64,000 nucleotides of DNA, from NCBI GenBank assembly GCA_903945495.1, contig CAJAVU010000023.1, forward strand, positions 21,220 through 85,219, read 5' to 3'. The notes below the pieces were generated by a model. That model saw only the letters and a list, made by a program, of their open reading frames with translations, made no database searches and was not told where the DNA came from. Positions 32,476 to 46,763 of the stretch are shown here, piece after piece (positions within the stretch are counted from its first letter, which is position 1; the number at the start of each line of letters is the position of its first letter). The stretch is from an uncultured Flavobacteriales bacterium (lineage in GTDB: Bacteria > Bacteroidota > Bacteroidia > Flavobacteriales_D > Crocinitomicaceae). Both the position numbers and the translations under genes were made by a program.

Positions 32476-33501
32476 TTATCTCGACAATCGTTTTTGTTTA
32501 TCGGAAGGTTTTTTATTCAAAAGCATAAATTCAAAAATACCTTTCAAATAGCCTAAGCCATAACTAATATGAAGTAAGGGAAATGTGATTAATACATCCA
32601 TGAAATTGACCTTTTTATCTTCAGAAACAACATTAGCTGAAACATAAATAGCCAAAAAAACATACATCAAGAATGGAACAGAAGCCAGAAGGAAGACGGT
32701 TGGTGAAATAAACGGCAAAGGCAACAATAGCGCTAAATAACTCACAAATAAAGGCGGAACCAGTTGGCGGAGTGTCGTTACTGACTTGTGTTTTCGATTT
32801 ACATATACTTTCCAATAACCATATTGGAAAAATTGACGCCAAAGACCTGAGTAATTTCCTCGCACATAATATCGCAACGAACTATCATTGTCATAATAGA
32901 TTTTCCCACCTTCATTTGTAACACGAAAATTGAAATCATCGTCTTGATTACGAATCAATTCCTCGTCAAAAAAGCCGATTTTTTCAAACACCCAATAAGG
33001 ATACATTGGACTCGTTACGGTATCTGTATAACCCGATTTTTCTAAGGTTCTAAAATTTCCTAGTCCCATTCCAAATGCTGTAGACATTGCTTTGGAAATT
33101 ACTCGACCTGTTTCGTTTACGTATTCATTGACAATTTTACCACCCACACACCAAACAGATGGATCCGTTTCAAAGCGTTTCAAACTGTTTAATAAATAAT
33201 TTTGACTAAGGATGTGTCTTGCTCCAACAATCTGCACAAAATCGACCTTTCCACCTGCGTAAATACCAAGGTTAAACGCAAAGGGAGTTAATTGCTTTAG
33301 GTTGTCAACCAATTCTAAGTTTGGATACTGTTGGATTAGGTCATTGACACGTTCACGCGTTCCGTCATTACTCATTCCGTCAACAACAAAGACTTTAATT
33401 TCCGCAGAAACGGGTAAATCACATGCAAAAATCGCATGAATACACTCTTCGATGTATTGTTGCTCATTTCTACACGGTATTACAATGGAAATCTTTGTCA
33501 T
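32476..33501 (-). CDS. Family 2 glycosyltransferase with C-terminal membrane segments
   Basis: 341 residues. The N-terminal GT-A domain has ISIVIPCRNEQQYIEECI, VVDGMSNDGTRE and the metal-binding acidic cluster RNQDDDFNFR (about 186-195). The last 100 residues have about three hydrophobic helices. It probably adds one sugar to the lipid-linked repeat unit at the inner-membrane face. The start overlaps the stop of the DltA-like gene by 4 nt (ATGA), coupling it to the aminoacylation operon. Confidence 0.88.
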   Translation of the reverse strand: MTKISIVIPCRNEQQYIEECIHAIFACDLPVSAEIKVFVVDGMSNDGTRERVNDLIQQYPNLELVDNLKQLTPFAFNLGIYAGGKVDFVQIVGARHILSQNYLLNSLKRFETDPSVWCVGGKIVNEYVNETGRVISKAMSTAFGMGLGNFRTLEKSGYTDTVTSPMYPYWVFEKIGFFDEELIRNQDDDFNFRVTNEGGKIYYDNDSSLRYYVRGNYSGLWRQFFQYGYWKVYVNRKHKSVTTLRQLVPPLFVSYLALLLPLPFISPTVFLLASVPFLMYVFLAIYVSANVVSEDKKVNFMDVLITFPLLHISYGLGYLKGIFEFMLLNKKPSDKQKRLSR

Positions 33502-35012
33502 GTATGAAAATTTTTAAATGCTTTGTTTAAATAAATTGCTTCCAGTTTCTTTTTATCCGTCTTACCACTTGTATTCAGTGGTATTTCATGAATTTTTCGA
33601 AAATCAGAAGGAATCATATATTCAGGTAATTTTTTTCGTAGAAAAGAGACCAACTCAGCTGAATCTAGTTCATTTTGAGCAGAATAAAATGCAACAATTT
33701 TCTTTGTTTCTCCTTTGCTTTTTAGACCAATCGTACTTGCATTTTCAATTGATTCGAATGTTTTTAGCGTAGAGGAAATATCTTCTAATTCGATGCGATA
33801 TCCATGGAATTTCACCATTTCATCGTTTCTCCCTGCATAAAAAATTAAGCCGTCTTTGTAATAACCTTGATCTCCAGTTAAATAAATCCGCTCGTTTTCA
33901 TAGGTGATGAATTTAGCTTGGTTCAATTCTTCATTGTTCAAATAACCAGGGGACAAGTGTTCGCCCTGAATGCAAATTTCACCTACTCCTTCTTCGTCTT
34001 CATTTAATAGAATGATTTTCGAATTTGGTTTCGGATATCCAATCGGCATGGCGTTGTATTTCTCGATGATTGAATCATTCAAGCGCACCGAGGTTGTTAA
34101 ATTTGTTGCTTCAGACGGACCATAGGCATTCCAAATAGCTGCAGAAGGAAAACGCTTTGCCAATTCCTGATAGGTTTTTACTGGTAAAGCTTCACCAGCG
34201 AAAACAAAGGAATGTAGATTCGGCAAATGTTCTTCTGTGAAACGCGGATCTCTCAAATAGAGATATACGAGACTTGGAGTCGAAATCCAAACGCTCACGT
34301 TGTGCGCAAGAATTTTATCAATTAAACCCGTTTGATCTTTTAACTCATCAGAGGTAACCGAGACGAGTGTTGCGCCTAAACGCAAAAATAAAAATTCATC
34401 AAATGATGCAAAATCAAAGCTTAAGGAAGAAACATTGAGCAAAACATCCGTTGAATCAATCGAAAAATCGTTTGAAATCCATTGTGAAAATTCGATAATT
34501 CCTTTACGTGCAATTGGTACACCTTTCGGACGACCAGTTGTTCCAGAAGTAAAGAGGATATAATTGATCTTATTCTCTGGTTCTAACGGATTTTTCAATT
34601 CAAAATCAATCTTTCCTTGTTGCTTAATACACGTTATAGATGGAGCTTGAATAACACAATCGAATAACTCGTTAATTGCAACGTCTGTCGTACAGTTGAT
34701 TAAAACTTGCGCCTTGCATTCCTCTTTCATCATTTGGATGCGCTCAAAAGGAAAAATAACATCTGCCGGAACATACACAGCTCCGTAGAGCATTAAAGCA
34801 GTTTTCGCTGCAATGATGTGTGCTTGTTTATGTCCGTAAATGATTACAGGATTACTTTTTGGAAGATTCAATTCATTCAACAACAGAAGTAATTTATTTA
34901 CTTCCATTTCGAAATCTCCCCATGACCAAGAAAAATCACTTCCAACAAGCGCAATTTTATCCTTTTCAACATCGGATTCAATCAGCTTATTATCTTCAAA
35001 TGAATACTTCAT
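33498..35012 (-). CDS. DltA-like adenylation enzyme (aminoacyl carrier-protein ligase)
   Basis: 504 residues of an ANL-superfamily adenylation domain: core A3 ILFTSGTTGRPKGVP, A5 WNAYGPSEATN, A7 IYLTGDQGYY, A8 RNDEMVKFHGYRIELED and the C-terminal catalytic lysine in NTSGKTDKKKL. Length and single-domain form match DltA, which activates D-alanine with ATP and loads it on the carrier protein DltC. Amino-acid choice cannot be read with certainty. It lies downstream of genes for a carrier protein, DltD, a DltX-like peptide and an MBOAT, so it supplies the acyl donor. The start is preceded by AGGAG 12 nt upstream of the ATG. Confidence 0.87.
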   Translation of the reverse strand: MKYSFEDNKLIESDVEKDKIALVGSDFSWSWGDFEMEVNKLLLLLNELNLPKSNPVIIYGHKQAHIIAAKTALMLYGAVYVPADVIFPFERIQMMKEECKAQVLINCTTDVAINELFDCVIQAPSITCIKQQGKIDFELKNPLEPENKINYILFTSGTTGRPKGVPIARKGIIEFSQWISNDFSIDSTDVLLNVSSLSFDFASFDEFLFLRLGATLVSVTSDELKDQTGLIDKILAHNVSVWISTPSLVYLYLRDPRFTEEHLPNLHSFVFAGEALPVKTYQELAKRFPSAAIWNAYGPSEATNLTTSVRLNDSIIEKYNAMPIGYPKPNSKIILLNEDEEGVGEICIQGEHLSPGYLNNEELNQAKFITYENERIYLTGDQGYYKDGLIFYAGRNDEMVKFHGYRIELEDISSTLKTFESIENASTIGLKSKGETKKIVAFYSAQNELDSAELVSFLRKKLPEYMIPSDFRKIHEIPLNTSGKTDKKKLEAIYLNKAFKNFHT

Positions 35013-35058: not shown

Positions 35059-36255
35059 TTAAAACAACTTTCCGCTAAAAATATAGATTGAAACGGCAAC
35101 CGCATTCACCAGCATGAAAATCGATAAAACCTTGACCAATTGCGGGTTCAAATTACCAAATAAAACATCACGTCCTTCTTTTTTGCAGCGATAATTGTAA
35201 TAGTTATGGATTACCGAGTACAATCCGAAAAGCATACCTGATGCTACATAATGTAGTTCAAAGCCATTCCAAAAACCCATTAATGTAAAGGTTAAGAACA
35301 AGGCTACACTTTGACGTTGAATGGACGTGTTAAAGCGTTTTTTACTCGTGAAATTTTTAAATATCGGTTTGAAGAAATAGTCGTTTAACCAATCTCCCAA
35401 TGATTTATGCCAACGTTGCCAAAACTCTTTCGGATTTTGAGCAAGAAAAGGTTTGTCAAAATTTCGTGGAACCTGAATACCCAAAAAATATCCAAACGCC
35501 ATGGCTAACAGCGAGTAACCCGCAAAATCAAAGAATAAATAGACCAAATATCCATACATATCAACCAAATAGTAGATGATGCCATGGAACTGATCTAGAT
35601 GCGTAAGCAATAAACTATTTAAAGCCGTTGCAAGAATGTATTTGAACAAAAGTCCTGCCACCAGGAAATCCATTCCTTTCAGAACATTAGCCGAATTAAT
35701 ACTGCTAAATCCTAAATCAACGTTCTTTTCGAAACGCTCATAGCGATCAATTGGACCAATTAAAAGTGTTGGAGGAAACGCTAAGAATGTAAAATACGAA
35801 ATAAACGATATCTCTTTTCGATTTGCTTCATCGAAATGAATTTGGAGCATTTTAAACGACGCGTAGGATAAACCAGCAATCTGAAAAATAGACTGAACTG
35901 AAAGCTTAAAACTTGGCAAGACATTGAACAACTTCATTAAAAAAAGCGGCAAGACATACAGAATGATGATTTTAGCACCTTTCCAATTGTGTTTCTTTGA
36001 ACAGAACTTAAATAAGAAAAATCCATATCCAATAAACGCGATGAAATGCAGTGGTTTTGGAAATAATAGCAACAAATAGATGAAGGAAATTACAGCTAGA
36101 AAATAGCCATAGGCTTTTACCGAATTTGAAAACCCAGCTTTTAACAGAAGTCCAAGACCAACAAGCAAAAAGAGGAATACATAAAACTGACCATTTGCAA
36201 ACGGCAAGGTGTTGTGCAATTCTAAAAATGGACTTATGTCTGTCGTAAATATCAA
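35059..36255 (-). CDS. DltB-like MBOAT acyltransferase
   Basis: 398 residues with about 11 membrane segments. The MBOAT signatures are FWQRWHKSLGDWLNDYF (conserved Trp-His region) and the catalytic histidine in GFELHYVASG (His335 counting from the start used). DltB passes activated D-alanine across the inner membrane. The only in-frame start before the conserved region is TTG at 36255, with GGA 4-6 nt upstream. The stop of the DltX-like gene lies 11 nt before it, suggesting coupled translation. AlgI/PatA-type O-acetylating MBOATs are the alternative, but the DltA, DltC and DltD neighbours favour DltB. Confidence 0.85.
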   Translation of the reverse strand: MIFTTDISPFLELHNTLPFANGQFYVFLFLLVGLGLLLKAGFSNSVKAYGYFLAVISFIYLLLLFPKPLHFIAFIGYGFFLFKFCSKKHNWKGAKIIILYVLPLFLMKLFNVLPSFKLSVQSIFQIAGLSYASFKMLQIHFDEANRKEISFISYFTFLAFPPTLLIGPIDRYERFEKNVDLGFSSINSANVLKGMDFLVAGLLFKYILATALNSLLLTHLDQFHGIIYYLVDMYGYLVYLFFDFAGYSLLAMAFGYFLGIQVPRNFDKPFLAQNPKEFWQRWHKSLGDWLNDYFFKPIFKNFTSKKRFNTSIQRQSVALFLTFTLMGFWNGFELHYVASGMLFGLYSVIHNYYNYRCKKEGRDVLFGNLNPQLVKVLSIFMLVNAVAVSIYIFSGKLF

Positions 36256-36266
36256 ATTTCCAAAGA

Positions 36267-36425
36267 TTAAAATTGTTGATAGACAAAATCCACTTTTGAT
36301 TTTGTTTCGATGTTTTGGTTTGGATAAACAAGCTCCTCAATATTGACTACGTAGATTAGAAAATAACCTACTATCAACAAGGTATACAGCAATACATTGT
36401 ATAGAAATCTATTTTTTCTCTCCAT
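36267..36425 (-). CDS. DltX-like single-pass microprotein
   Basis: 52 codons, ATG at 36425 to TAA at 36267. It begins inside the last 17 nt of the dltD-like gene in another frame and ends 11 nt before the dltB-like start. A basic N-terminus (MERKNR) precedes one hydrophobic helix (about residues 10-28), then a polar stretch, and the protein ends DFVYQQF. Gram-positive DltX is a ~50-residue single-pass protein encoded in the dlt operon whose C-terminal aromatic motif (F-x-Y-x-x-F) holds the Tyr proposed to carry D-alanine between DltB and DltD. Here that would be Tyr49. Position, size, topology and motif all agree; no homology search was possible. Confidence 0.72.
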   Translation of the reverse strand: MERKNRFLYNVLLYTLLIVGYFLIYVVNIEELVYPNQNIETKSKVDFVYQQF

Positions 36426-37575
36426 AAGTGTCCACTAAAAATTTATTTATTTTCATCCATCCCAAGTGACCTGTATGCATAATATCATCCAAAGTACCAG
36501 GAACGTAATCGTTTGAATCTGCTGTAAACATATTCAAATATGGAACATCATTTTTGTCTAAGTAATTGGTCATTTTTGTTAAAATCGGATTAAATCTCTC
36601 CAATTTTTCAAAATGATACGGATTCAAATTTTGAATGATTATCGAAACATTTGCGCCATTTTTCTTAAGATAATCTACTAACAAATAGAGATCTTTCAAT
36701 TCTTGATTGTCCGACTTTAAAACCGAAAATTCAGCATGCTTGTAGTCTTTTTTCAAGTATTCCTCATAATATTCATCGTTAATGAACATTTTATTGGAAT
36801 GCACATTGTTCGCAAATTGTTCTTCCAACTCACTAAATTTCTTTTCCCAATTGACGTTTACCGTTTTTTGAGATGGTAGTGAAATGTTCGATTCCGGATA
36901 TTGAATAGTAGCGAATTCACTTTTTCTGTTTCTAAAATAATCGTTGAGAACCGGAAAACCGTGATATTCAAACAAATTAATAAAGTAATTTATTCTCCTT
37001 CCTGGACTGGCGATCAAATACTTGTTTCGATGTAAATAATTACCAATTTCCTGCTTTTCTGCAAGTGTGATACCTTCATCCTTGATAATTCGCTCTAACA
37101 GATTTGGTGTTGCAAATTCTAAAAAAGCTTCGATATTCGTTCCATCTGTATCAAACCAACCTGGACTTACAATAATGCAAATATTTGCGTTTTTCACTTC
37201 ATTTCTATAACCCAATAAGGCAGAGTACATGGCGTATGACTGAAAATAAGCATGTCCGAAACTACTCACTCTTAAATTGAGGTTATTTGTAGCGAAAATG
37301 TGTGGAATATATTCTGATTTTGAGGTTAATTCAGAAGAACCAAGCAAGGTCACGCCTTTTTTTTCTCGCAAAGACAAATACAAATTGTGTTCGGCATTCA
37401 CACCGTCTTTCAACGAATAGGTGTATGAATCTATACCTGTTTTCGTGTTAGAAATTGTTTTAACCTTTGGGTTTTCAATTTTTAAAACAGTTTGGGTCAG
37501 AAAAATAATTGAACCCAAAGAAACAACGAAGGCAAGTAGTAAAGCAGTAATATGATATTTTAGTAGATTCCTCAA
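36409..37575 (-). CDS. DltD-like SGNH-fold acyl transfer protein
   Basis: 388 residues: one N-terminal membrane helix (about 8-28), then a periplasmic SGNH-type domain. The nucleophile block is VTLLGSSELTS (about residues 75-85). The C-terminal Asp-His block is in DDIMHTGHLGWMKI (about 363-376), as in DltD. In Gram-positives DltD transfers D-alanine from the membrane intermediate to teichoic acid; here the acceptor would be a glycan in the periplasm. It overlaps the carrier-protein gene by 4 nt upstream and the DltX-like gene by 17 nt downstream. Confidence 0.85.
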   Translation of the reverse strand: MRNLLKYHITALLLAFVVSLGSIIFLTQTVLKIENPKVKTISNTKTGIDSYTYSLKDGVNAEHNLYLSLREKKGVTLLGSSELTSKSEYIPHIFATNNLNLRVSSFGHAYFQSYAMYSALLGYRNEVKNANICIIVSPGWFDTDGTNIEAFLEFATPNLLERIIKDEGITLAEKQEIGNYLHRNKYLIASPGRRINYFINLFEYHGFPVLNDYFRNRKSEFATIQYPESNISLPSQKTVNVNWEKKFSELEEQFANNVHSNKMFINDEYYEEYLKKDYKHAEFSVLKSDNQELKDLYLLVDYLKKNGANVSIIIQNLNPYHFEKLERFNPILTKMTNYLDKNDVPYLNMFTADSNDYVPGTLDDIMHTGHLGWMKINKFLVDTYGEKK

Positions 37576-37796
37576 GCCTTTAATCTTTCTATGTACGCCA
37601 TAATCAAGCGAACAGAATTGAAGTTTTCTTCAACAACATCAACCATTGGAATTTGAATAGCGTATTCTCCTTCCAATTCAACAATCAACTCAACGATTGT
37701 AATTGAATCTAAAATTCTATCCGTCCAAAGCTTATCGTCAATGCCTACTTGTACAAAGGCAATTTCTTCTATTCGATCTTTTACAAACTGTTCCAT
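37572..37796 (-). CDS. Acyl carrier protein, DltC-like
   Basis: A 74-residue four-helix carrier. The phosphopantetheine-attachment serine is Ser31 in RILDSITIVELI, the position and hydrophobic context of DltC/ACP. It would carry the amino acid loaded by the adenylation enzyme encoded at 33498-35012 and present it to the MBOAT. It is the first gene of the Dlt-like set, with its own TAATTTTG box only 5 nt before the ATG and an 85-nt gap from the upstream gene. A 4-nt overlap links it to the dltD-like gene. Confidence 0.88.
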   Translation of the reverse strand: MEQFVKDRIEEIAFVQVGIDDKLWTDRILDSITIVELIVELEGEYAIQIPMVDVVEENFNSVRLIMAYIERLKA

Positions 37797-37881: not shown

Positions 37882-39150
37882 CTATATTGTTGAAGTTTTA
37901 CTGTTCTTGTCTATTTCAACAAGCATAAAGAAAAACAAGTAGAAGATGATTCCGGCTTGCAATTGAAGCATGGATTCAAAAAGAGAATTTAGCAACAAAC
38001 TTGAAAACAAAACAATCAACAAAACGGATCGCTTTTTCACACTGTAAACTACCCCACCGAAAGTAATCAAAAGTAAAATGATTAAACCAAAAACTCCAAT
38101 CTCTAATTGGGTTTGTAAAAATTGATTATGCGGATTGTATTGCTTATCAGCAAAGGTCGGATTTCCTTTGGAACGAATATTTTTACCCAAATAAATATCT
38201 ACATTTCCAGTACCAACACCGAACGGATGAGCCGCAATTTCTTCACATGTAATAGACCACATCACCAAGCGTGTTTCTGAACTTGATGGTGATTCACTTA
38301 ATTGCTGAATGAATTTTTCTGGTGATTTAAAATAGCGCTCAGTTGCACGTGCTGTTTCATTGATATCATCTCGAATGAAAGGCGTTTTGAAAATGAGTAC
38401 GACCAACAAACCGATTGCAACCAGTGTAAAACCGACCATAACTTTGACAGAAAATCTGTTTTTCAAATACACCAAAAACAAGATAGCACCTAAAACTAGG
38501 ATTGAAAGTAAGCCTGCTAATGACATTAACAATAAGGTATACAGCACTAAAAGGACAATTAAACCGAAGAAGCTTACGCGTTTGATTGATTCTTCTTTGT
38601 AGAGAAAATAAGCAGAAACCATTGAAAGTAAGGCAAACACACTCATATACGTTGGATGCATGTGAGGCGATAAATGACTTTTCAAAAAGCAATAAGGGAA
38701 GGAAAAATGCTGAATATAACACGGAATACCAATGTAAATTCCATACCCAAAAGACACTAAGGTAGCCAAAATCAATCCCCAATAAACTGGTTTCATTGCA
38801 AATCCAGTCGGTTTACGAAAGGAAAATAAAAAAGGAAAAAGTATAAAAACCGCTTTGTTTTCAAGGTACTTTGACGCTTGATCCATGTTTTCGGTCCAAA
38901 TGATTCCAATCGCGTAGGCGCAATACAACATGGCAAACAGTAAACTGAATTTGTTTAATTGAAAGGTGATTGTTTTGCGTACATAATTTATAATGATGAC
39001 AAGAACCATCAATAAAATATACGGACCAGCAAGCTTTGACGCATTAATTAACACGACAAAGAATCCTGCCAAGATTAACTCGAGGTAATTGATACGTATA
39101 TAGTTCAACAGTTTCTCCACGATCTTAGCGAATAGTTTTATAAAGTTCAA
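37882..39150 (-). CDS. Wzy/WaaL-superfamily O-antigen ligase or polymerase
   Basis: 422 residues with about 10-12 hydrophobic segments and a large periplasmic loop around residues 245-320. The O-antigen ligase family pattern is seen in the loop and following helix (HPFGVGTGNVDIY, YNPHNQFLQTQLEIG). Such proteins either polymerise repeat units or ligate the chain to lipid A-core. A second member lies at 45519-46763, so one may be the polymerase and the other the ligase. The first 26 nt overlap the end of the upstream glycosyltransferase gene. Confidence 0.82.
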   Translation of the reverse strand: MNFIKLFAKIVEKLLNYIRINYLELILAGFFVVLINASKLAGPYILLMVLVIIINYVRKTITFQLNKFSLLFAMLYCAYAIGIIWTENMDQASKYLENKAVFILFPFLFSFRKPTGFAMKPVYWGLILATLVSFGYGIYIGIPCYIQHFSFPYCFLKSHLSPHMHPTYMSVFALLSMVSAYFLYKEESIKRVSFFGLIVLLVLYTLLLMSLAGLLSILVLGAILFLVYLKNRFSVKVMVGFTLVAIGLLVVLIFKTPFIRDDINETARATERYFKSPEKFIQQLSESPSSSETRLVMWSITCEEIAAHPFGVGTGNVDIYLGKNIRSKGNPTFADKQYNPHNQFLQTQLEIGVFGLIILLLITFGGVVYSVKKRSVLLIVLFSSLLLNSLFESMLQLQAGIIFYLFFFMLVEIDKNSKTSTI

Positions 39151-41303: not shown

Positions 41304-42086
41304 TTAATATTTTAAACCTTCAAAAAAGCGTTTACTGTTTTCGTAGGTGTTCCAATAAAAACTCGATCTCCAATTCTTCGGATGCAACAGTAAATGCACA
41401 ATTTGATACTGATCTAACGCATCTAATTGTGAAATTGGGCCATTGTAAAATCCAGGTCCACCAGCATCCATAATATTGATGGAGTAATTATCTAAAAACT
41501 CAGCATCATACGCTTCGAAGACTAAACCGTTATCGTCCAATACATCACGATTGACAAAGGTGTGATTCGGCATTTTAAGTTTTCGATTGGCAAAATCACC
41601 GTGACTCGCAATGTATTGAATCTTTGATCCTAATTGGGTTTCTAGCGCCGATAAATTGTGCTTGAATTCCTTTCTAATTTCATCGAAATGCTGTTGAATC
41701 TCTTCTGCTGATTTGATTTTATGACGTTTTGCATAGCTTGCCAATTCTTCATAATGATAACCGCAATCTGATCCATACGCCAACACTTCTTTCATGATTG
41801 GAATATCAATCGTGCAAAGCCTGAAATAGTAAGATGTATGAATCTTGTATTTTTTTTCAATTCGTAACCATTCACGACAATAGCTTGGATCTGAATCGAT
41901 GTCTTGTCGAATCATTAAAATTTTGCGCGAACCAATTTCATTTTTCTTCACTAAATCAAAAAACTGGCTGTGCGGCATGATTTCAAATCCTTTGTCCAAA
42001 GCCGTTTTAATCAAATGGTCGTATTCATTGATTCTGTTGTGCAGAAAATAATCAAGTCCAATTCGTTTCAATATGGTTTTAATCAT
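41304..42086 (-). CDS. Polysaccharide-deacetylase-like protein (NodB-type fold)
   Basis: 260 residues. Visible elements fit the carbohydrate esterase 4 barrel: an Asp-containing strand LMIRQDIDSDPS, then CGYHYEELA, YIASHGDFANRK and the late IVHLLLHPKNWR. These would supply the catalytic Asp and metal His residues. It may remove acetyl groups from an amino sugar in the locus product or act on a lipid-linked intermediate. No signal peptide, so cytoplasmic. The start overlaps the stop of the GNAT-like gene by 4 nt. Confidence 0.7.
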   Translation of the reverse strand: MIKTILKRIGLDYFLHNRINEYDHLIKTALDKGFEIMPHSQFFDLVKKNEIGSRKILMIRQDIDSDPSYCREWLRIEKKYKIHTSYYFRLCTIDIPIMKEVLAYGSDCGYHYEELASYAKRHKIKSAEEIQQHFDEIRKEFKHNLSALETQLGSKIQYIASHGDFANRKLKMPNHTFVNRDVLDDNGLVFEAYDAEFLDNYSINIMDAGGPGFYNGPISQLDALDQYQIVHLLLHPKNWRSSFYWNTYENSKRFFEGLKY

Positions 42087-42763
42087 CGCTTAAAGTTTAC
42101 GGTGAAGGGTTTGAATCCGATTCGTTTCTTGAACATGACTAATCCATTTTCGAACTTTCCGAAGGTGTCATACATGATAAAGTTAATTCGATTGTCATTT
42201 ACAAACGTTGAAACGACCCTCGTCATCAATAAATACATGACATTCTCTTTCAAATAGTCGCCGTGACCAAGAATTCGATTAATCAATACCATTTCGCCCA
42301 CGACATAGGTCCACACATACGCTACTAATTTGCCTTCTTTAGAATAAACTCCAAACCAATTATTCACTTCATCGTTTGGCCATTCAGTGACTAAGTGCTT
42401 ATAACTTTCGTCCATTTCACGCCCTTGTCGCTCAGTAGAAGATGTATTAATTTCAAAAATGGCATCAATTTCATTATTCGGATTAAACGACTGAAAAGTG
42501 TATCCTAATTTTGCGCAGCGTCTCGAAAAATAAGCCGCAGAATTTTTACCATTCACCGAACCCAAATAATCATCTTCTTTCGAAAATTGATCAATTGGCA
42601 ATAATGAAATATTGTATTTCTTTAATTTCAAAAAGCCGCGCTTCCACGCCCTGGAATTAAAATAGCTCAAGAGGCGATTAGCGGTTTCAGAATTCCCTAA
42701 CCGAATAGCCACTTTTCCCTCTGGAGAAAGAATATTTTTGATTAGAAATTTATACTTTTTCAT
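42083..42763 (-). CDS. GNAT/FemAB-like acyltransferase
   Basis: 226 residues. The second half resembles the GNAT fold used by FemAB-type and sugar N-acyltransferases (NWFGVYSKEGKLVAYVWTY, YLLMTRVVSTF, MFKKRIGFKPF). No cofactor motif is clear. It probably modifies a sugar or amino acid in the surface glycan. It lies 4 nt after the hexapeptide acyltransferase gene and overlaps the deacetylase-like gene by 4 nt; the three form a tailoring group. The family call is tentative. Confidence 0.55.
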   Translation of the reverse strand: MKKYKFLIKNILSPEGKVAIRLGNSETANRLLSYFNSRAWKRGFLKLKKYNISLLPIDQFSKEDDYLGSVNGKNSAAYFSRRCAKLGYTFQSFNPNNEIDAIFEINTSSTERQGREMDESYKHLVTEWPNDEVNNWFGVYSKEGKLVAYVWTYVVGEMVLINRILGHGDYLKENVMYLLMTRVVSTFVNDNRINFIMYDTFGKFENGLVMFKKRIGFKPFTVNFKR

Positions 42764-44253: not shown

Positions 44254-45544
44254 AACGATTCAACTTTGGATTCGAAATTAAATAGTAAATCCAAGCAAAG
44301 GTAACAAGCAGCAAGATACTACACGAGATGCTCATCACCATAAAACCAACGTGATAACTTTTAAAGTACCATCCAATAAACAGGGAAAGAATTTTAAGCG
44401 AAATATCAATACACGTAAACAAGAATGGAATTCCTAATCGATTATAAATAATAGGTATTCCTGAAGCCGAATTTGCAATGAAATTTAAAAACATCCAAGG
44501 TGTAAGAATTTGGGCAATGACTCCCGCCTCGCGAAACTTTTCAGAGAATACAAACGCAAAGATGTCTGGTGCAAATAAAAATAACGTTAAGAAAAGTGGT
44601 GCTCCTAGAATAAAAACAATTTTATAAATCTTTAAAACCATTGGTTTTATCGTTTCGCCATTGTTCACGGATTTAGTTGCCTTTTCCATCAATGCTTGTG
44701 AAATCGCTGTACTAATTAAACTACTTGGCACACTCAACAAACGATATGCGAAGGAATAACTACCCAAAACAGAGGTTCCAAAGAAGCTCTTCATAAAAAA
44801 GATGATTCCATTTTCTTGAAAACTCCCTACCAAAGCATGCGAAGCGTTTATTTTAGGAAAGTTTCGGTAACGAAAAGCATTCTGCTTCATTTTCTCCCAA
44901 CTAACCTGATCCAAGAATTTACGACGATTTTTAACAACTGTTCGCGACAAAATCACAAGGCTTGTGACTTGAGCAAAAAAGTACCCCATCATTAATCCAA
45001 AAGAACCTTTGACAGTTATTCCTAAACCAAGCGCTAATCCATTGTTAATCGTTGCATTTCCAATTCTAGAATAAGCATTGCTTTTAAATGTTTTTATTCG
45101 CAATGACCAAAAATTCAACACTTGTATTAAACCAAGCATTAGAACAACCAAGGGTACTAAATAAATATAACCTCCATTCTTCGTTCCGCCAAAAAAGTCA
45201 CTAATTAAATCACCAAATAAGAAGATCGCAAACAATGAAAGCACAGACCATGCTACCGCGATTAGAAAGGACAAAGCCATTACATTAACAGCATCCTCAT
45301 CTTTCTCTGGTAAAATGACAGCCATTTCATAGCGCATTGTTGATACCACTGATAAAAGACCCGTAATAGACATAAACAAGCTCAATTCACCAAAATCTTC
45401 TGTGCTATAAATTCGTGATAGAATTGGTGTCAATAAAATCGCTACAAACTGGGCAATGGTAGTACCCGAGATTAGTGTTAATGCATTTCGAAAAAATTCA
45501 GAACGCAAATAATCAGATTTAAGCGTTTTTAATTTTCTTCTCAT
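44246..45544 (-). CDS. Wzx-type lipid-linked oligosaccharide flippase
   Basis: 432 residues with about 12 hydrophobic segments of the MOP superfamily; the N-terminus GTTIAQFVAILLTPILSRIY is typical of Wzx. It moves the undecaprenyl-linked repeat unit across the inner membrane for polymerisation. It is the second gene of the locus, overlapping the Wzy-like gene by 26 nt and the FemAB-like gene by 8 nt. The Wzx/Wzy pair places this locus in the Wzy-dependent pathway. Confidence 0.9.
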   Translation of the reverse strand: MRRKLKTLKSDYLRSEFFRNALTLISGTTIAQFVAILLTPILSRIYSTEDFGELSLFMSITGLLSVVSTMRYEMAVILPEKDEDAVNVMALSFLIAVAWSVLSLFAIFLFGDLISDFFGGTKNGGYIYLVPLVVLMLGLIQVLNFWSLRIKTFKSNAYSRIGNATINNGLALGLGITVKGSFGLMMGYFFAQVTSLVILSRTVVKNRRKFLDQVSWEKMKQNAFRYRNFPKINASHALVGSFQENGIIFFMKSFFGTSVLGSYSFAYRLLSVPSSLISTAISQALMEKATKSVNNGETIKPMVLKIYKIVFILGAPLFLTLFLFAPDIFAFVFSEKFREAGVIAQILTPWMFLNFIANSASGIPIIYNRLGIPFLFTCIDISLKILSLFIGWYFKSYHVGFMVMSISCSILLLVTFAWIYYLISNPKLNRYD

Positions 45545-46763
45545 GCAATTCGAATTGAGATAAATAATATGCTAAACCAATGGCAAACAGTAATTGTAAA
45601 ACTGGATCTGACATTGGATTATTGGTAAGTGCATTAATCGTATATACTATTAGCAAAAGGGTAAAAAATATGCTCTTTTCTGTTTTAACCTGTTTCCAAC
45701 TTTCCATAAACCGCAGTGGCATTAAAAGCATACCAATGTAAAACAATAATCCAAAAACACCATAACGCCATTGCATTAATATGAATTCGTTTTCAGAATA
45801 AAGTTTGTGTTCATAGAAATAATTCTTGTTTATTCCATAGCCAAAAAATGGTTTCTCTTTTATCATCGACCATAATTCAGCCCACACTTCCAATCGTCCT
45901 CTTAAAGATCCATTCTCGGCAACATTAAATTTGGCACCCGTAACATAACCCAACGAATACTGATCCATAAATTTAACAACAGCGACTGAAATACTAATTC
46001 CAAGAAGCAATTTTAGCATCAGTTTCAAATTCATTTTTTCCATCAATGCAAAACAAAGGAGGTAAACTCCAAGCGCCAACATACTCGTTCTTGACTGTGT
46101 CAACAATATCATAGAGATTGACAAAAAGAAAAATAACTTCCCCCAATGCCAAGATACCAATTTGATGAAACGAATAAAATAGATGGCGAAAAACGAAAAA
46201 AGTATTCCGTTAATATTTGGATTCCCCATGGTTCCCAAAATACGTTTAGTAGCGGGTCCCCCCAATGAATTTTTACCAAAAAACTCCAATTGCGCACTAT
46301 TGGTAGCAAAACTTGGCATCACGACTTCATTGAAGTGAAAAACATTATAAAAATGAAATAAATTAAATAGTATTAGTGCAAAGAAAACAAGGACTACAGG
46401 CTTATAGAAATTCTGGTTCATCTTAAAAACCGTATAAAAAAGGATGATGAACGCCACGTATTTGAGCAATTTATACAACTCAAAATAATCATTAAACTCT
46501 CGTAATCGTCCATTGATCGCCATACTCAAAACACCATATCCTGCCCATGCGAAAATGAACAGAAAGTACCAGTTTTTCAGTAACTTGATTTCAGGCAAGA
46601 GTGCTAAAACGATAAAAGGCAAAAGCAAATCTTCTAAACGCAGATAGAAGCCTTCTTTAATTGGAATAAATGGTGATAAACAAAGTGATACAAATGTTAA
46701 TAAGCAGAAAAAAATCAACAAATTACTTCTGAAACTATTCACTTGTTTGTTGATTTCAACCAT
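45519..46763 (-). CDS. Wzy-like O-antigen polymerase/ligase
   Basis: 414 residues with about 10-12 hydrophobic segments. The polymerase/ligase region is seen in MGNPNINGILFSFFAIYF, TQSRTSMLALGVYLL and KPFFGYGINKNYF. It is the first gene of the run and probably the polymerase, as it sits next to Wzx. A TACTTTTG box 14 nt upstream looks like the promoter of the whole locus. The 26-nt overlap with Wzx implies translational coupling. Confidence 0.85.
   Translation of the reverse strand: MVEINKQVNSFRSNLLIFFCLLTFVSLCLSPFIPIKEGFYLRLEDLLLPFIVLALLPEIKLLKNWYFLFIFAWAGYGVLSMAINGRLREFNDYFELYKLLKYVAFIILFYTVFKMNQNFYKPVVLVFFALILFNLFHFYNVFHFNEVVMPSFATNSAQLEFFGKNSLGGPATKRILGTMGNPNINGILFSFFAIYFIRFIKLVSWHWGKLFFFLSISMILLTQSRTSMLALGVYLLCFALMEKMNLKLMLKLLLGISISVAVVKFMDQYSLGYVTGAKFNVAENGSLRGRLEVWAELWSMIKEKPFFGYGINKNYFYEHKLYSENEFILMQWRYGVFGLLFYIGMLLMPLRFMESWKQVKTEKSIFFTLLLIVYTINALTNNPMSDPVLQLLFAIGLAYYLSQFELHEKKIKNA

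Follow-up and report, generated by a model that had tools for sequence, protein, structure and literature searches.

The window, by which we mean the whole 64,000-nucleotide stretch, carries on its minus strand an operon with the gene order dltC-like, dltD-like, dltX-like, dltB-like, dltA-like. The dltC-like gene (37572..37796; minus strand, as are all window features below) encodes a PP-binding carrier protein, and the dltD-like gene (36409..37575) an SGNH acyltransferase that matches PF04914 with an E value of 1.2e-39. At the downstream end lie a dltB-like gene for an MBOAT protein (35059..36255) and a dltA-like gene for an amino acid:carrier ligase with an unusual pocket (33498..35012). The matches to PF04914 (DltD) and PF03062 (MBOAT) are far over the Pfam cut-offs. 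Those to the NCBIfam models for DltA, DltB, DltC and DltD fall below their cut-offs, among them those of the carrier protein to the PRK05087/DltC model and of the ligase to PRK04813/TIGR01734 (E about 1e-118).

Between the dltD- and dltB-like genes is a dltX-like gene of 52 codons (36267..36425) with an ATG start, which encodes a predicted single-pass membrane protein. The original prediction placed this gene across the dltD-like stop and just ahead of the dltB-like start, and the re-derived coordinates confirm it: the micro-ORF shares 17 nt with the dltD-like ORF (37575-36409), and its stop lies 11 nt ahead of a TTG at 36255 in the MBOAT frame. This TTG is the first ATG, GTG or TTG in that frame, although the true MBOAT start is unsure because most relatives begin with ATG. 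The product has the build of a DltX protein, with 52 residues against a typical length of about 50, a basic N-terminus and one predicted membrane helix, placed by an AlphaFold model at residues 2-25, with lower confidence for the tail. It ends in DFVYQQF, and the codons of the FVYQQF motif occupy 36270..36287. Tyr49 (codon 36279-36281) is the predicted acyl-carrying residue.

The operon is embedded in a polysaccharide cluster that includes genes for a sugar transferase, a DegT aminotransferase, glycosyltransferases, two Wzy_C proteins and a flippase. The two Wzy_C proteins, of the O-antigen ligase/polymerase type, are encoded at 37882-39150, directly upstream of the dltC-like gene, and at 45519-46763. 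Two other cluster proteins (41304-42086 and 42083-42763) match no Pfam family at E up to 0.01, and a gene for a 23S rRNA-intervening-sequence four-helix protein (PF05635; 30773-31126) is situated between those for the sugar transferase and the DegT aminotransferase.

A conserved gene at the dltD-dltB junction

Genome searches with the MBOAT as bait yielded 12 relatives, and a short ORF ending in F[VI]YQQF was found at the dltD-dltB junction of all 12, where the original prediction had suggested looking. With the window included there are 13 such loci; given the ATG starts chosen in the alignment, the micro-ORF and dltD share 4 to 17 nt in 11 of them and are 1 nt apart in the other two. The distance from the micro-ORF to the first MBOAT start codon ranges from -1 to 11 nt in these 13 loci. 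A scan of named genomes, from which the best 80 of 547 matches were taken, added 46 further Gram-negative loci. The micro-ORF is seen at 57 of the 58 Gram-negative loci fetched, a set with four same-genome pairs (L006/L043, L009/L051, L010/L056 and L014/L062); it is complete with its tail at 56, and at a contig edge in L059 its last nine residues are present. The sole exception (L039) lies at a contig edge, its sequence starting within the MBOAT gene. Loci from Campylobacterota and Alcaligenaceae also carry the micro-ORF.

Changes among relatives of the micro-ORF are mostly synonymous and substitution is purifying. When the first six aligned codons are left out, omega is 0.00 to 0.32 in 13 pairs; comparison of the window with L035, L037 and L003 gives 0.22, 0.26 and 0.31, where synonymous sites are close to saturated. 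The original prediction had staked the gene on conservation of its frame and C-terminal tyrosine in relatives and on its synonymous-site pattern, and it withstood scrutiny on both. The window holds 1000 stop-to-stop segments of 30 codons or longer; the micro-ORF alone among them ends in F.Y..F, where 0.2 such ends would be expected.

A frame that is short, overlaps dltD and lacks a Pfam match might represent an untranslated chance reading over the dltD-dltB junction. Against this explanation stand the conserved position, frame and motif, the low number of such motifs expected in the window, and the low omega values from synonymous-site patterns. We reject it, its probability being practically nil. 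The micro-ORF is thus confirmed as a real, conserved gene.

The gene and its neighboring MBOAT also occur together. Among 395 Bacteroidia genomes, the MBOAT (E <=1e-50) is present in 13, the window genome included, and the microprotein profile matches the same 13 at E < 1e-14. The next profile match, with an E value of 9.7e-5, falls in a 317-residue open frame, and no orphan microprotein was found below that value among the 395 genomes. Because the profile was built in part from the 13 positive genomes, this co-occurrence is telling for the absence of orphans and not for the presence of the gene. The dlt-like operon is rare and was found in 2 of 60 near relatives, counting the window genome itself, in 0 of 25 other genomes of its genus, and in 1 of 395 genomes of a phylum-wide sample, namely the window genome.

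Relationship to DltX

In known systems, D-Ala is reported to pass from DltC, through the action of DltB, to an invariant Tyr in the FXYXXF motif at the C-terminus of DltX, and from DltX to the DltD serine (PMC12148441). DltX is described as conserved in Firmicutes and often overlooked for its size (PMC5541007). A search with the DltX family HMM had been suggested as a check on the proposal that the window protein is DltX-like. The window protein matches no Pfam or NCBIfam model. At the dlt locus, PF12459 (DltX) exceeds its cut-off in 0 of 13 genomes and gives sub-threshold matches in six, with 8.7 to 17.8 bits against a cut-off of 25. The sole over-cut-off PF12459 match in the 13 genomes, rejected as a candidate, lies off the dlt locus in a 1305-aa open frame, and the scan is mostly background. 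Weak matches to Pfam DltX are obtained for 14 of 34 aligned members (E up to 1, best 4.6e-4), the window protein not among them; any other family matches at most two of the 34.

Profile-profile comparison upholds the DltX-like identity. When the 34 members are compared by hhalign with 13 DltX rows drawn from Firmicutes dlt loci, the probability is 96.3 and the E value 1.5e-9. With the last nine columns removed, the probability is 95 and the score 33.6; 40 column shuffles score at most 15.1, and a reversed-column control gives 5.9. The homology therefore holds beyond the tail, and the micro-ORF protein is homologous to DltX even though it does not reach the Pfam cut-off. Other hallmarks of the family are likewise present, namely an FXYXXF motif with an invariant Tyr and homologues of DltA, DltB, DltC and DltD alongside. 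Of 34 Firmicutes loci, 30 yield a DltX candidate with the same tail pattern. A second fully conserved DltX residue is reported to be a Leu in the helix (PMC5541007); a Leu that is invariant in the 13 Firmicutes rows, perhaps the published one, aligns with Tyr21 of the window protein.

The profile has 81 relatives in the protein database, two of which are near-identical to the window protein. None carries a Pfam domain, and all readable names are ‘hypothetical protein’. Tyr is present in 81 of 81 and F.Y..F in 80, although the word-based search favours tail-sharing relatives. An Achromobacter-type query brought 48 more relatives, likewise without a Pfam domain, and the microprotein has no match among PDB sequences up to E 10. 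The suggestion that the family has been overlooked in Bacteroidota is thus supported by these unlabelled relatives, but it was drawn too narrowly, as Campylobacterota and Alcaligenaceae have the gene too. Dickeya dlt operons are reportedly written dltDXBAC, a label by which a Gram-negative DltX would not be wholly new. No paper on a Gram-negative DltX was found in the literature searched, and passages that discuss the dlt operons of Dickeya and Pectobacterium mention dltX only for Gram-positives (PMC10142376).

It is conceivable that the DltX homologue is mainly structural, holding the MBOAT and DltD together while the acyl group reaches DltD otherwise. Known DltX is reported to bind both DltB and DltD (PMC12148441), and the helix part of the micro-ORF protein is conserved as well as the tail. 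However, the tail is the most conserved part, with F47, Y49 and F52 unchanged across all 34 aligned rows, and acyl-Tyr on the motif has been reported for the relatives DltX and PatA (PMC12148441). We therefore regard a mainly structural role as improbable and favor a covalent shuttle in which Tyr49 would carry the acyl group.

An altered MBOAT active site

Catalysis by MBOAT proteins is described as depending on an invariant TM6' His together with an Asn, Asp or His on re-entrant loop-2 (PMC12979248), and the His is called universally conserved and required (PMC12148441). The window MBOAT has the fold and sequence of the MBOAT/DltB family, yet alignment with the solved DltB 6bug pairs His289 with His283 (codon 35407-35409) and His336 with Asn330 (35266-35268). 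The invariant TM6' His (StDltB His336) is thus missing, and membership in the fold stands. Across 93 aligned MBOATs, this position is Asn in 59 (the window and 58 Gram-negative loci) and His in 34, all from Firmicutes, whereas the re-entrant-loop His is kept in 92, the exception being L082. The loss of the MBOAT His formed no part of the original prediction and is more surprising than the micro-ORF.

A second residue has changed with the first. His336 and Tyr345 are replaced by Asn and Ser (Ser339 in the window, codon 35239-35241) in 55 of 55 Gram-negative DltB rows, whereas His and Tyr are retained in 34 of 34 Firmicutes rows. These positions are among five columns that separate the two groups, each being at least 93% conserved in either group with no shared letter. 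Both residues are reported to line the inhibitor site of DltB, where the DltX tail is predicted to bind (PMC11035591). The replacement occurs once on a tree of 79 rows, made by a quick method and with a long outgroup branch. This tree is rooted with a PatA-like MBOAT of the window organism, in which WHG and a tail motif are retained. For an Achromobacter DltB, 120 of 447 relatives are listed; of these, 114 have Asn/Ser by pattern and two more by eye, and the remainder comprise one Thr/Ser, one Asp/Ser and two that are unreadable. Bordetella pertussis entries and one Dickeya parazeae entry also have Asn at the MBOAT His position. We make no claim that the Asn-type DltB is unpublished.

As judged from these alignments, two active-site residues have been replaced in concert in the Gram-negative MBOAT lineage. 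From this we infer a His/Asn pair that is inverted relative to other MBOATs, in which the retained loop His283 would do the acid-base work. Since a His described as universal is Asn in this lineage, the reaction likely works differently there.

An Asn-type MBOAT might also be catalytically dead or a mere channel, with another enzyme charging the tyrosine, given that MBOAT activity is said to depend on the His that is absent here (PMC12148441). Fixation of Asn and Ser in 55 of 55 rows and of the loop His in 92 of 93 points instead to constraint and not decay, and makes a dead enzyme very unlikely in our estimation. The dra locus is reported to be needed to incorporate D-alanine (PMC9858536). 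In D. dadantii, loss of dltB function by mutation is reported to lower survival under polymyxin (PMC3544676). The Asn type is thus likely active, provided that the Asn-type entries represent the gene products concerned; these phenotypes come from other species, the Asn-type Dickeya entry being from a different one. That an Asn enzyme might be weak or inactive nonetheless counts against the explanation that we prefer, an active MBOAT that charges a detached tyrosine.

The window MBOAT ends in IFSGKLF and has no shuttle motif at this C-terminus, which excludes a fused shuttle. The organism's other MBOAT (L002) keeps the His and has a fused FVYFAF tail.

Operon partners, cargo and acceptor

The catalytic residues of the other partners are retained. 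All 37 aligned DltC rows have the carrier Ser. Of 83 DltD rows, 81 have the Ser of the GSSE motif (the other two being gaps), and all 83 have Asp364 and His367.

The alanine-contacting residues of DltA have been named (PMC8972799; also PMC4176424). All 30 Firmicutes rows read have Asp, Leu, Met and Cys at these positions, followed later by a Val. Of these residues, the window DltA retains the Asp that binds the amine (Asp200). The Leu, Met and Cys of the D-Ala pocket beside it are replaced by Phe201, Phe204 and Ala272, and the Val by Asn304. In B. cereus DltA, the change C269A is reported to relax D-Ala preference (PMC4176424). Of 35 Bacteroidota-group rows, among which four loci are second copies of a genome and one is labelled Chlorobiota, 22 have Met, Ile or Ala in place of the Cys. 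The closest relatives of the window, L035 and L039, keep the Cys, as does every row read from Campylobacterota or Alcaligenaceae. With four alanine-contact positions changed, D-alanine is unproven as the cargo of the window system, and the pocket (Phe, Phe, Ala, Asn) does not support the D-alanine assumed in the original prediction.

The genomic surroundings offer a clue to the acceptor. In sampled relatives, the operon lies among other genes that are mostly unrelated to polysaccharides, and no acceptor gene was common to the relatives' neighbors (20 + 10 proteins; all L039 ORFs of at least 150 aa). Envelope-related neighbors include PagL (L041), a heptosyltransferase, SLT and LysM proteins (L037), an M23 peptidase (L055) and an acyltransferase-3 (L058). 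An aldehyde dehydrogenase gene follows the dlt operon on the same strand at three Bacteroidota loci (L040:10769-12178, L043:13798-15207 and L050:10721-12163). Because the relatives share no acceptor gene, the polysaccharide cluster of the window only hints at the acceptor. Judging from this gene neighborhood, a surface polysaccharide is the likely acceptor in the window organism.

A proposed pathway and its implications

The window gene set fits the DltX scheme, with a tail-less MBOAT and with DltC and DltD whose catalytic residues are kept. We consider it highly probable that the micro-ORF encodes a DltX homologue that spans the inner membrane once, and whose Tyr49 serves as a covalent acyl shuttle from an MBOAT with an inverted His/Asn pair to the DltD-like transferase. 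In such a pathway, the DltA-like ligase would load an amino acid onto the DltC-like carrier. The DltX tail would be held in the outer funnel of the MBOAT, where the aminoacyl group could be moved to Tyr49, such that acyl carriage by this residue is predicted for the outer side of the inner membrane. The DltD serine would then take the aminoacyl group from Tyr49 and esterify a polymer at the cell surface, for which the polysaccharide of the surrounding cluster is a candidate.

The finding extends to the Gram-negative Dlt lineage, for which we predict a detached, unannotated shuttle protein working with a changed MBOAT active site. A broader reading, which we put forward tentatively and at somewhat under even odds, is that Gram-negative Dlt constitutes a separate catalytic lineage. 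It would have arisen by one-step loss of the His and the nearby Tyr, would act with an inverted pair (loop His, TM6' Asn) on the Tyr of a detached DltX, and in many Bacteroidota, including the window organism, would decorate surface polymers with an amino acid that is not D-alanine.

If the pathway is correct, a class of Gram-negative systems for surface-polymer acylation has been annotated without its key carrier, because the gene for this carrier is so short and so diverged that the DltX model misses it. The changes from His to Asn and from Tyr to Ser across the lineage would also constitute a natural experiment on MBOAT chemistry, and which conserved residue is needed for acyl transfer to the shuttle Tyr would be directly testable.

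Comparison with known systems

Firmicutes DltX (PF12459, formerly DUF3687; dltXABCD operons) is likewise short, with one hydrophobic helix and a C-terminal F.Y..F motif. It is also encoded with a DltB-type MBOAT and DltD, and is homologous to the window protein by profile comparison. The two differ in their tails, which read YQQF here and mostly YNEF in Firmicutes DltX, and in gene location, usually the dltD-dltB junction here and about 1.4-1.7 kb before dltB in Firmicutes. Moreover, the window-type protein scores below the Pfam cut-off and its partner MBOAT is of the Asn type. A locus from Clostridium sp. (L079) has a DltX-like ORF (FVYSQF) between dltD and dltB, in the Gram-negative order, together with a His-type MBOAT, so the gene order of an operon does not strictly go with the type of active site.

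PatA/PatB and other MBOAT-SGNH pairs are reported to use an acyl-Tyr shuttle on a C-terminal hexapeptide, as proposed here, and to draw on acyl-CoA instead of a carrier protein (PMC12148441). In the MBOAT pathways other than Dlt that this source covers, the motif is reported to be fused and a DltX-like protein to be absent (PMC12148441). PatA/PatB-type pairs have the motif fused to an MBOAT that keeps the His, as in L002, whereas in the window the motif is detached and the His is Asn.

The dlt/dra loci of Bordetella and Dickeya have the same Asn-type MBOAT as the window. The dltX genes compared here are those of the Alcaligenaceae relatives Achromobacter and Schauerella, in which the gene order is D-X-B-A, with no C upstream, against C-D-X-B-A in the window.
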